Below are positions 10,198-26,602 of a stretch of DNA of 64,000 nucleotides, one piece after another (the first letter of the stretch is position 1; each line of letters starts with the position of its first letter). The position numbers and the translations under genes were made by a program. The notes beneath the pieces are model-generated. The model was not told where the DNA came from. It saw only the letters and a program-made list of their open reading frames with translations, and ran no database searches. Source of the stretch: Sycon ciliatum (lineage: Eukaryota; Porifera; Calcarea; Leucosolenida; Sycettidae); the NCBI RefSeq assembly GCF_964019385.1, contig NC_088645.1:33359302-33423301 (forward strand), in the 5' to 3' direction.

Positions 10198-13100
10198 CTA
10201 CTGGTGCGCTGGTGGAGGACGGTTGCTTGATTTGGAGCTCTGACGATTAACAACTGACTGAGGAGGAAGCTTGGACACCTGTTTTATGGTACTGTACTCT
10301 TTTCTATTCTTGGTGTTGGGTTGTGTTGTGTTCTTGGCTGCTTTCCTTGCAAGTATTCGTGTTCTCACTTGTTTGTGGCGTCCTCTGGGACCGTCACCTT
10401 TTTCTCACCTCAGCTCCCTACCCCGCATTACCTTACCCTCCTTGCGTTCTATGTTAGAGTATTTCCCAGTGCAACCATTTGCGCTGATAGCGCCCCCGCG
10501 TCATTTATCACCCTTAACTAGTGAAGTTTTTGGTGGCGGACTCCAATTGCTGGCGCTACTCTTTGCATTTTCTCTGTTTCTCAGTATTGCATCACCTCCA
10601 CCCAGGAGCTGTGAGGTATTAGCTCCGGAGCCAGTTTTCACGCAATGTCCTGGGTTCATCATGCCTAAATGCTGCAAGTGTAACGCATTGGGCTCTTGTG
10701 CCAATTGCAGCTGCGCAAAGAATAGTGTCAGTTGTGACAATTGCGTCCCGCTTTCAAAGGGGAGATGCAGAAACACTAACTTTAGCAAGGCGCCGAGAAG
10801 TTGCGCCTCCGTTGCAGCGCCAGATGGTACTCAGCCTGCACTAGCTGGTAGTGGACAAACAGCCTCTACGAGGACACAGGACCTCCAGTCAGCATCAGCC
10901 TCTGCTTTGGCATGCAGCCAATCATTGCCTTCTACTGCGGACGTTAATCTTCTGGCATTTCTCGATTCAACGCAGTCGTTAACCACCGATGCATCGCAGC
11001 CTGAGGCCAGCTCACAGATGTCAATGCAGGAGTTGCGGCAGGCGTCGCAGCATCCAGACTCTCCGATCCCAGCCGTGTCGCAGCGGCCAACGTCTACCAC
11101 CCCATCTACACCGCTGGCCAGTCAGCCCCAGCCACAGCAGCCGGCACGAGACAACTCCAGTACAGAAGCGGCGCACGATTTGGGCCCTTTGCCGACTGCT
11201 CCTGAGGGTCAACCAGACAGCCTGCAGGGGGCGTATGAAGAGTGTGTGACTTGGAGGAGAAATTTGTTTATTGTTCCCTTCGGAGCGGCCGGGAAGCAAT
11301 TTGTTGAGAAGCAATTTGTTGAGGAAATTGCACGACTGGTTCGCATATTTTCCGACGCGGCGCCCAACCGTGAACGAGCCTGGACATCAATAGCTGTCGC
11401 GTGCCACCTCCTGTTGCAGAAACCGCACGGACAGGGCTCCTCCTCCGAACACGGAACTCACCTGACGCGTCGACTTGCTGTTTGGAAGTCAGGAGACATC
11501 AACACCCTGCTGCGTGAATGCCGATGCATCCAGGCGCATCTTCCGGCACACCATACCCGGAACGTCGACCAGTCAGGCCAAATTGACGACACCTTGTTTT
11601 CAAAACTCGTATGTTCTGGGAAAACGCAGTCAGCCATTCGGATGGTTTGCTCCAGTGGCTCGGGTGGAGTGTTGTCAATGAGCGACACTGTCAGCGGCAG
11701 CCCAGGTTCAACAGTACGTGACATTCTGCTTGATAAGCATCCCCAGCCTGCTGTACCTCCGGATGACGCTCTCTTGCAGGGGCATGACGCGGCTACCCCT
11801 CAAGATCCGATCCTTTTTGCCAGGCTCACAGGAGCGCTGATCAAGCAGATAAGTCGTCAAATGTCCGGAGCGGCCGGTCCATCGGGCCTGGACTCTGATG
11901 CGTGGAAACGCATGTTGACCTGCTTCGCTGCAGCGTCTGACCAGCTCTGTGCGGCAATGGCAGAAGCAGGAAAACGCTTATGCACCCAGGAAGTCCCACC
12001 AGAAGAGCTAAGTTCGTTCACTGCGGCCCGCCTCATCCCACTGGACAAGCAACCGGGGGTGCGCCCTATCGCTGTTGGGGAGGTTTTCCGGAGACTAATA
12101 GGCAAAGCTGTGATGAAGATAATTCAGTATGACGCCATGCACGCCACAGCCCCTCGTCAACTCTGTGTTGGTGTTCCGTCTGGGTGTGAAGCTGCCGTGC
12201 ATACGATGACCGACATGCTTGTCTCGCCGGAGGTGGAGGGTGTGCTCTTGGTCGATGCCACCAACGCTTTCAACGCTATGAACCGCACAGCAGCCCTACA
12301 CAACGTGCCACTCGTCTGCCCTGCCCTGGGGCAGGTGTTCAAGAACACCTACAGCAGTCCATGCCGCCTGTTTGTGTCGGGTGGTGGAGAGATAAGGAGT
12401 CAGGAGGGTACCTGCCAAGGTGATCCTCTCGCCATGGCGATATACGCGGTCGCCATGATGCCATTGATAGACAAGCTGTCAGAGTGCTGCCCCGACGTGG
12501 TGCAGCTATGGTATGCTGATGACGATGCTGGTGGCGGACAGCTCCTCAATCTAAGGCAGTACTGGGATGGGATTCTGGAGCATGGCCCTGGGTATGGGTA
12601 CTACCCTAACGCGAACAAGACAACACTAATTGTCAAGGAGCAGCATTCGGCCCTGGCACTCCAGCTTTTCAGGGACACGGGCATTCGTGTTGTGACCGAG
12701 GGTGCTCGTTATCTTGGCGGCGCACTCGGTACAACGGTCTTCTGTGAGGAGTATATCACAGATTTGATCGACAAGTGGACGCTGCAGGTTGATCGCCTGG
12801 CGGAGGTGGCCACCACTCAGCCACATGCTGCGTACGAGGTGTTTGTAAAGGGCCTCGTGTCCAAGTGGCGGTACCACTTGCGCGTCCTATCTTGCCCTGC
12901 GCATCTTCTGGCCCGTCTCGACGCCGCCATTACGGACAAGCTGCTGCCAGCGCTCAGCGGCCATTCGTGTTCGGACGAGTCGGCACTGAGAAAGTTGCTA
13001 TCGCTACCAGCGCGGTTTGGTGGCATGGCAATCCCTGTGCCCTCGGTGGAGGCCGAGAAAGAGTTTTCTGCATCCAGACAGATTGTGGCTCCTGTGGCGG

Positions 13101-24368: not shown

Positions 24369-26602
24369 AGTAGTAGTAGTAGTAGTAGTAGTAGTAGTAG
24401 TAGTAGTAGTAATAGTAGTAGTAGTAGTAGCAGTAGTAGTAGTAGTAGTAGTAATAGTAGTAGTAGTAGTAGTAGTAGTAGTAGTAGTAGTAGTAGTAGT
24501 AGTAGTAGTAGTAGTAGTAGTAGTAGTAGTAGTAGTAGTAGTAGTAGTAGTAGTAGTAGTAGTAGTAGTAGTAGTAGTAGTAGTAGTAGTAGTAGTAGTA
24601 GTAGTAGTAGTAGTAGTAGTAGTAGTAGTAGTAGTAGTAGTAGTAGTAGTAGTAGTAGTAGTAGTAGTAGTAGTAGTAGTAGTAGTAGTAGTAGTAGTAG
24701 TAGTAGTAGTAGTAGTAGTAGTAGTAGTAGTAGTAGTAGTAGTAGTAGTAGTAGTAGTAGTAGTAGTAGTAGTAGTAGTAGTAGTAGTAGTAGTAGTAGT
24801 AGTAGTAGTAGTAGTAGTAGTAGTAGTAGTAGTAGTAGTAGTAGTAGTAGTAGTAGTAGTAGTAGTAGTAGTAGTAGTAGTAGTAGTAGTAGTAGTAGTA
24901 GTAGTAGTAGTAGTAGTAGTAGTAGTAGTAGTAGTAGTAGTAGTAGTAGTAGTAGTAGTAGTAGTAGTAGTAGTAGTAGTAGTAGTAGTAGTAGTAGTAG
25001 TAGTAGTAGTAGTAGTAGTAGTAGTAGTAGTAGTAGTAGTAGTAGTAGTAGTAGTAGTAGTAGTAGTAGTAGTAGTAGTAGTAGTAGTAGTAGTAGTAGT
25101 AGTAGTAGTAGTAGTAGTAGTAGTAGTAGTAGTAGTAGTAGTAGTAGTAGTAGTAGTAGTAGTAGTAGTAGTAGTAGTAGTAGTAGTAGTAGTAGTAGTA
25201 GTAGTAGTAGTAGTAGTAGTAGTAGTAGTAGTAGTAGTAGTAGTAGTAGTAGTAGTAGTAGTAGTAGTAGTAGTAGTAGTAGTAGTAGTAGTAGTAGTAG
25301 TAGTAGTAGTAGTAGTAGTAGTAGTAGTAGTAGTAGTAGTAGTAGTAGTAGTAGTAGTAGTAGTAGTAGTAGTAGTAGTAGTAGTAGTAGTAGTAGTAGT
25401 AGTAGTAGTAGTAGTAGTAGTAGTAGTAGTAGTAGTAGTAGTAGTAGTAGTAGTAGTAGTAGTAGTAGTAGTAGTAGTAGTAGTAGTAGTAGTAGTAGTA
25501 GTAGTAGTAGTAGTAGTAGTAGTAGTAGTAGTAGTAGTAGTAGTAGTAGTAGTAGTAGTAGTAGTAGTAGTAGTAGTAGTAGTAGTAGTAGTAGTAGTAG
25601 TAGTAGTAGTAGTAGTAGTAGTAGTAGTAGTAGTAGTAGTAGTAGTAGTAGTAGTAGTAGTAGTAGTAGTAGTAGTAGTAGTAGTAGTAGTAGTAGTAGT
25701 AGTAGTAGTAGTAGTAGTAGTAGTAGTAGTAGTAGTAGTAGTAGTAGTAGTAGTAGTAGTAGTAGTAGTAGTAGTAGTAGTAGTAGTAGTAGTAGTAGTA
25801 GTAGTAGTAGTAGTAGTAGTAGTAGTAGTAGTAGTAGTAGTAGTAGTAGTAGTAGTAGTAGTAGTAGTAGTAGTAGTAGTAGTAGTAGTAGTAGTAGTAG
25901 TAGTAGTAGTAGTAGTAGTAGTAGTAGTAGTAGTAGTAGTAGTAGTAGTAGTAGTAGTAGTAGTAGTAGTAGTAGTAGTAGTAGTAGTAGTAGTAGTAGT
26001 AGTAGTAGTAGTAGTAGTAGTAGTAGTAGTAGTAGTAGTAGTAGTAGTAGTAGTAGTAGTAGTAGTAGTAGTAGTAGTAGTAGTAGTAGTAGTAGTAGTA
26101 GTAGTAGTAGTAGTAGTAGTAGTAGTAGTAGTAGTAGTAGTAGTAGTAGTAGTAGTAGTAGTAGTAGTAGTAGTAGTAGTAGTAGTAGTAGTAGTAGTAG
26201 TAGTAGTAGTAGTAGTAGTAGTAGTAGTAGTAGTAGTAGTAGTAGTAGTAGTAGTAGTAGTAGTAGTAGTAGTAGTAGTAGTAGTAGTAGTAGTAGTAGT
26301 AGTAGTAGTAGTAGTAGTAGTAGTAGTAGTAGTAGTAGTAGTAGTAGTAGTAGTAGTAGTAGTAGTAGTAGTAGTAGTAGTAGTAGTAGTAGTAGTAGTA
26401 GTAGTAGTAGTAGTAGTAGTAGTAGTAGTAGTAGTAGTAGTAGTAGTAGTAGTAGTAGTAGTAGTAGTAGTAGTAGTAGTAGTAGTAGTAGTAGTAGTAG
26501 TAGTAGTAGTAGTAGTAGTAGTAGTAGTAGTAGTAGTAGTAGTAGTAGTAGTAGTAGTAGTAGTAGTAGTAGTAGTAGTAGTAGTAGTAGTAGTAGTAGT
26601 AA
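24369..26602. repeat. (AGT)n microsatellite block 7, about 2.2 kb
   Basis: Begins exactly at the 3' end of RLE-D. The first 90 bases hold three variant units (two AAT, one AGC); after that no interruption was seen for about 2.1 kb. Variation confined to the RLE-D-proximal edge fits either decay at an edge or later expansion of the interior. Confidence 0.99.

Follow-up and report, generated by a model that had tools for sequence, protein, structure and literature searches.

Why do divergent retrotransposons stand one behind another inside a single trinucleotide repeat? The question is raised by a 64,000-nucleotide stretch of the genome of the calcareous sponge Sycon ciliatum (C3:33359302-33423301, forward strand; the window hereafter), which lies within an assembly of 538,412,230 bases and 313 contigs. 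An HSP70 encoded on contig C4 of this assembly agrees at 100% over 630 residues with a protein of Sycon ciliatum; COX1 was not found there. The window contains elements of five families, named A to E, in a long (AGT)n array. An earlier reading of the sequence alone (the sequence-only reading) had described three of them, B, C and D, as a family of endonuclease-bearing long interspersed nuclear elements (LINEs) that target this repeat. We propose that A to E are one clade of non-long-terminal-repeat (non-LTR) retrotransposons with a restriction-like endonuclease (RLE) and that they insert by target-primed reverse transcription (TPRT) into (AGT)n. Judged from sequence comparison, this reading has a probability of about three in four.

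Elements of five families in one (AGT)n array

The elements in the window are the following, where a slash marks the junction between element and repeat:

10198-14214, + strand: element B, AGT-sense family, near full length, open frame to the stop ending at 14062
14617-18585, + strand: element C, AGT-sense family, open frame to 18198, 3' end AATAAAGTCAACGTTCTC/AGT
20468-24368, + strand: element D, AGT-sense family, 3' end AATAAAAACACATTTC/AGT
1-1828, - strand: element A, ACT-sense family, 5'-truncated, continuing beyond the window edge
18907-19173, - strand: 3' end of element E, 267 bp, ACT-sense family, AATAAAGGATGTG/ACT
26602-26996, - strand: 395-bp 5'-truncated piece of the A 3' untranslated region (UTR), 98% identical to locus L168

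The repeat around them was delimited with Tandem Repeats Finder (TRF) and an exact scan:

1829 to at least 28744, no strand: composite (AGT)n array with nested insertions
1829-4129, 5287-6816, 7316-10197, 14215-14616, 18586-18906, no strand: AGT blocks of the array
19174-20467, 24369-26601, 26997-27697, 28730-28744, no strand: further AGT blocks of the array

As the sequence-only reading had described, B, C and D are divergent elements that lie head to tail, all on the + strand, with the AGT repeat on both sides of each. It had overlooked the oppositely oriented clade members in the same array, A and E. Its picture of a single target was right in that the AGT array is common to all the elements, but A and E use the other strand and have (ACT)n in sense. 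The proposed single-open-reading-frame (ORF) layout likewise stands, but not for the window copy of D, which is frame-shifted and broken into two overlapping frames (20492-22735 and 22650-24065). We read the start codon of B as the ATG at 10661, just 5' of a cysteine-rich motif, and by our count that of C is the ATG at 14647. Compared with longer copies elsewhere, which start farther upstream and also after AGT, C and D are 5'-truncated in the window. The 3' end of A lies outside the window (L168) and reads, in sense, ...GAGGCCTTGTT/ACTACT, that is TTGTT/ACTACT. The A fragment at 26602-26996 has (ACT)n on both sides in sense, and longer copies of E encode C-termini that are 56-66% identical to clade proteins.

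Genome searches returned 293 candidates for B, 830 for C, 545 for D, 167 for A and 337 for E, and the best 40 were scored per family. The sample of B comprised 20 further loci of the other 39 scored, in listed order, giving 25 element pieces including the window copy. The window copy was left out for C (first 30 of the other 39 scored copies) and for D (30 of the other 39 main entries, passing over C4:36718447, C4:36608885 and C4:38968502, which are without a 3' end or start). For A, 14 3' ends were chosen near the top of the 40, with four passed over, and the 5' sample consisted of six of seven entries truncated beyond position 100. Five 3' ends and five upstream stretches of 40 were used for E. 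Junctions of B, C and D were scored automatically, at 3' ends as at least 4 perfect units no more than 3 nt from the end and at 5' ends as AGT no more than 12 nt from the truncated end; those of A and E were scored by reading. The C copy at C3:390946 was scored as AGT despite a small change near its end. Fetched loci L018, L021, L061 and L115 contain runs of N, masked or assembly gaps, next to the copies, and fewer flanks are therefore readable.

Among the B, C and D copies examined, AGT adjoins 78 of 85 3' ends (23/25, 29/30 and 26/30, respectively), which bears out the core claim of the sequence-only reading, and this fraction was one of the checks that it had named. The 3' ends of the other two families are followed by (ACT)n in sense in 18 of 19 cases (A 13/14, E 5/5). 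At least 1,438,224 of the 538,412,230 bases of the genome (at least 0.27%, about 1.44 Mb) lie in perfect (AGT)20 tracts. At twice the array fraction, the probability of 78 or more AGT ends among 85 is about 3e-168, a value that assumes independent copies, which they are not fully. The AGT association of the window elements is far beyond chance. An unrelated LINE in the window (47216-49878; 774 candidates, (AATAC)n tail) provided a control, and AGT or ACT was found at none of its 3' flanks among the first ten + strand entries of 40. The repeat association is therefore not general to LINEs in the Sycon ciliatum genome.

The listed copies within each family are mostly 98-100% identical. Eight of the eleven near-full B copies keep one frame of 1261-1266 amino acids, and the remaining three have a 1890-residue frame running into the flank, a frame of 1288 residues beside a masked stretch, and one of 919 residues. 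The families have likely been active recently. The elements might have inserted anywhere and persisted only in AGT arrays, and DNA transposons are present in the array too. However, the examined near-identical, hence probably young, copies sit in the repeat, each family keeps to one strand, and the unrelated LINE does not share the association (0/10). We give such passive survival almost no credence.

Junctions and the proposed insertion mechanism

The 3' ends of the window copies enter AGTAGT directly (B ...GTGTCA/AGT, C ...GTTCTC/AGT, D ...ATTTC/AGT), so that the same register at the three junctions, as previously noted, was found again. Another named check, the register among genomic copies, also came out in favour: the copies examined have one main 3' register per family and are not evenly spread. 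The repeat starts with a whole unit at TCA/AGT in B, CTC/AGT in C, TTC/AGT in D and GTG/ACT in E, and the main junction of A, GTT/ACT, is ambiguous by one T. No poly(A) was found on the repeat-joined 3' ends examined. B, C, D and E have AATAAA 7-12 nt before the repeat, and none was found near the 3' end of A.

The sequence-only reading went too far in taking a fixed register by itself as the sign of a sequence-specific nick. The same register would result from an AGU tail transcribed together with the element, and the 5' registers are spread. The 3' register within a family is inherited by descent, and it is therefore little evidence for a nick. The RNA could instead choose the target: nicking would be loose, and extension would take place only where the strand pairs with an AGU or ACU tail. 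This mechanism accounts for a 3' register that stays constant, for the rule of one strand per family and for the absence of poly(A) at repeat-joined ends. It also agrees with alternative 3' ends of B (position 3996; L012, L013, L017), which lie at an internal CAAGT able to pair with the repeat. The A copy L174 speaks against it. The last bases of the usual 3' end are missing there and the overlap with the repeat is zero, yet a whole ACT unit resumes, as a fixed T^A nick predicts. Because of this one clear case, we suggest that the primed strand may be nicked at T^A in both orientations. L173 and the alternative B ends would also fit whole-unit resumption but are ambiguous, and the B copy L011 joins at a whole AGT, but with only two units before other sequence, so that it counts little. 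Target choice by the RNA is the less probable explanation, at odds of roughly one in six, worth keeping in mind.

The 5' ends lie in the repeat as well. AGT adjoins 43 of 56 5'-truncated ends by the automated rule (B 13/16, C 15/23, D 15/17), at many truncation points per family. ACT adjoins all 11 truncated ends of the other families: 6/6 in A, one of them behind 9 nt of filler, and 5/5 in E, at five different cut points. Two truncated B pieces have AGT behind 13 and 27 nt of filler. The longest copies are also preceded by AGT (B 9/9, C 7/7 and D 12/12 examined, of 13), and in 10 of these 12 D copies the upstream AGT tract stops at a common position, to within about 20 nt. The truncated ends bear on whether the elements make the arrays, a templated AGT 3' tail seeding microsatellites by slippage at random sites. 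Such an origin would fit the abundance of the repeat: (AGT)20 starts at 227,602 positions on the forward strand and at 251,806 on the reverse strand of the assembly, 479,408 together, against 224 for the reversed unit (TGA)20 and 9,376 for (AAT)20. A lepidopteran RTE precedent is described in the available part of PMC2887409, and in one C copy five AGT units give way to AGC repeats. But truncated 5' ends join the repeat too (43/56 AGT; A and E 11/11 ACT), and tail seeding alone is therefore insufficient. We consider it very unlikely as the source of the association; it may lengthen existing arrays. The truncation points also bear on segmental duplication of arrays as the means by which a few insertions were multiplied. 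Some pairs are indeed truncated at the same position (C at 683, 1013 and 1362), but most listed copies differ in it and are spread over many contigs, which leaves this explanation with a very small share of the probability.

The last repeat unit at the 5' junctions is AGT, GTA or TAG. As evidence for a fixed top-strand nick, the 5' register was considered and rejected, since the registers are spread. The 5' junctions have microhomology of 1-6 nt with the repeat. Of the 38 truncated junctions that lack filler, 37 overlap the repeat by at least 1 nt, against a null of 44%, and the count is 37 of 49 when junctions with filler are taken as zero (p 6e-6); the junctions of L059 and L119, copies that share a truncation point, are left out of this count.

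Several observations weigh against insertion of the clade into (AGT)n by TPRT. The copies examined are only a part, drawn from the best 40 of 167 to 830 candidates per search. One C copy is joined at its 3' end to (TAC)n, the wrong strand, and two D copies (C14:12011333 and C1:16000468) have a non-repeat 3' flank. The A copy L188 has no repeat at the computed 3' position. In three truncated C copies, two of them cut at the same point, ACT precedes the element and AGT follows it. Copies of C with ACT upstream or (TAC)n downstream mean that strand choice is not absolute, or that arrays invert. Three truncated copies (C10:21801454, C1:28233410 and C13:2630700) have a 5' flank that is neither the repeat nor a known element. 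The seven non-AGT 3' ends further include one that is masked, a rearranged D, a D with AGT interrupted by a short change, and a B whose 3' part is missing and which has two AGT units followed by other sequence. The other non-AGT truncated 5' ends comprise two masked ends, one that lies where the retrieved sequence stops and two with the element's own sequence upstream.

The sequence on the 5' side of the C copy L109 (C1:28233260-28233424) resembles, by eye, a coding region for C2H2 zinc fingers, and the AGT at the 3' side turns into AGC. From its flanks, L109 is a possible off-target insertion.

For insertion by TPRT, the following mechanism can be proposed. A nick by the endonuclease in a single strand of the repeat would release a 3' end, from which synthesis would be primed on the element RNA. 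In this priming the 3' end would probably anneal to AGU (or ACU) units transcribed downstream of the element. The AATAAA of B, C, D and E would place the 3' processing of the RNA in or near the array. The end of the cDNA would then be joined upstream through the 1-6 nt microhomology with the repeat.

Strand choice, relatedness and the encoded protein

B, C and D insert with (AGT)n in sense, whereas A and E insert with (ACT)n in sense. The insertion strand is a family trait, apparently one that was switched within the clade. In trees of all five families and 23 relatives, in which E covers 26% of the columns, the ACT families A and E were split from the AGT families B, C and D in 0 of 200 bootstrap trees. 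A single strand switch is not rejected (AU test, p 0.195), and inner support of the tree is moderate; the tree nevertheless suggests that more than one switch is likely. The examined copies of the five families are nearly always in long AGT runs, and one simple repeat seems to be home to a guild of parasites. We speculate, with considerable doubt, that the clade switched the primed strand more than once on one microsatellite, which gave two orientation niches, and that the elements contribute to the formation and growth of the arrays.

A database search in which 7,991 candidates were scored gave 95 relatives with E below 1e-100, followed by a drop to 1e-34. Database proteins P0001, P0012, P0031 and P0009 are close to B, A, C and D, respectively. 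The only named organism among the 95 is Corticium candelabrum; three relatives carry scpid labels, which we take to be Sycon (EukProt). No relatives with flanks were found in the viral contig collection. A search of genome contigs gave one 3.6-kb contig (L209) in a Poribacteria metagenome-assembled genome, with a relative 38% identical and only a short CTACTACTA after the ORF; L209 is likely host DNA in the Poribacteria bin.

Two regions of the protein of B carry the assignment:

12056-12634, + strand: reverse transcriptase (RT) domain, Pfam RVT_1, residues 468-660 of the frame from 10655
13295-13903, + strand: RLE region, residues about 881-1083

RVT_1 was matched in B, C and D and also in copies of A, C and D from the database; the matches of B and of the database A lie just below the curated cut-off. 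Invariant in the 47 aligned sequences are A621, D622 and D623 of the RT of B, and C925, C927, H935, C939, D995, D1011, E1035 and K1038 of its RLE, for which catalytic roles are presumed. The sequence profile matches the RT of R2 (E 1.3e-8) and, weakly, the endonuclease region of R2Bm at residues 937-988 (E 0.21 for the stretch, 6.6e-4 for the whole sequence). The predicted model of B has a mean predicted local distance difference test (pLDDT) score of 83.8 and a predicted template-modelling (pTM) score of 0.80, with residues 43-182 below 50. Its top six matches in the PDB are all R2 proteins, with TM-scores of 0.41-0.45 normalized to the query, and the modelled fold is similar to R2 in architecture, not close. 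At the N-terminus, a cysteine-rich motif (CCKC...CANCSC...CDNC...CRN) precedes a disordered stretch; none of the scanned proteins gave a Pfam match to this motif. An RT with its catalytic motif, a CCHC motif with a predicted RLE, a single ORF, a fixed 3' end and 5' truncation place the elements among RLE non-LTR retrotransposons (R2 group), and by these motifs B, C and D encode an RT and a predicted R2-like restriction-type endonuclease.

The 5' ends of D and B resemble each other (GCGCTGGTGGAGGACGGTTG...GAGCTCTG; copies L157/L071 and L019). R2 carries a 5' ribozyme, according to the available part of PMC3774820. No Rfam match to a ribozyme was found in window positions 10150-10700 or in L157, L160, L087 and L019.

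Known systems and other content of the window

Site-specific LINEs are best known from ribosomal DNA (rDNA), where they occupy one fixed site. The target of R2 is 28S rDNA, unlike AGT/ACT; the likeness to R2 lies in the overall fold, the RT and, weakly, the CCHC/RLE region. In the RT tree, R2Tg and R2Pm fall far outside the clade, on long branches and in a tree without C and E. NeSL elements target small nuclear RNA, transfer RNA and spliced-leader genes and rDNA, in contrast to the AGT/ACT repeats of the Sycon clade.

Dong, of the R4 clade, is an RLE LINE in (TAA)n with an N-terminal Myb/SANT-like domain, as described in the available parts of PMC7998251 and PMC3636483. It resembles the Sycon clade in its RT, its RLE and a trinucleotide microsatellite target (same parts), but the repeat here is (AGT)n/(ACT)n and neither the (TAA)n nor the rDNA target of R4/Dong. 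R4/Dong elements are reported without an N-terminal zinc finger in the available part of PMC7998251, whereas the Sycon clade has a small cysteine-rich module and a disordered stretch. No Pfam match to Myb was obtained in the clade proteins and no helical bundle precedes residue 186 in the model of B; the R4/Dong domain is described in the accessible text as highly diverged. Families on opposed strands are a feature of the Sycon clade, and the available parts of PMC7998251 and PMC3636483 do not mention them for Dong.

Togen elements, near NeSL/HERO, are (TG)n-specific in fish, and some HERO families are microsatellite-specific too (available part of PMC4640811). Both resemble the Sycon clade as RLE LINEs in microsatellites, in a comparison by description only from the same part of PMC4640811; the repeat of Togen is (TG)n rather than AGT/ACT. 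Lepidopteran RTE elements that generate simple sequence repeats are alike in that LINE 3' ends are joined to microsatellites. Their repeat is part of their own 3' UTR, whereas the Sycon elements have the repeat on both flanks (available part of PMC2887409). No earlier report of such elements in AGT repeats, sponges or Sycon was found in the open-access literature. Microsatellite-specific RLE LINEs are thus already known; on this evidence, the AGT repeat, the cysteine-rich N-terminus and the guilds on opposed strands are new.

Since related families use opposite strands of one repeat, the protein and RNA parts that set the strand are directly comparable. The many young copies in defined DNA form a large natural data set on 5' joining in TPRT. 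The elements are also relevant to a peculiarity of this genome, in which a single trinucleotide repeat occupies over 1.4 Mb.

Three other inserts interrupt the array:

4130-5286: DNA transposon with inverted ends (CAGTCAACTTCGC...), at TA of the AGT array
6817-7315: 499-bp insert, 1,426 candidate places, often in inverted pairs at 1-3 kb spacing
27698-28731: repeat of about 1 kb with 35-bp inverted ends, AGT on either side, related sequence in L012 and L018

They were considered as members of the clade and rejected on account of their inverted pairs or inverted ends, and by these features the non-LINE inserts look like DNA transposons. We take the insert at 4130-5286 to be pogo-like, and that at 6817-7315 is probably the end of an element with long terminal inverted repeats.

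Elsewhere in the window, a 2022-residue open frame at 33868-39936 with Peptidase_A17, RVT_1, rve and DUF5641 domains belongs to a BEL/Pao-type element. A tandem repeat at 60621-61232 has a 226-bp unit in 2.7 copies with 98% matches. The open frames at 42814-43860 and 56088-56996 are similar and share motifs by eye, such as TEYNKIWKDLP and TEYEKIWKNLP, and they possibly represent one repeat family.

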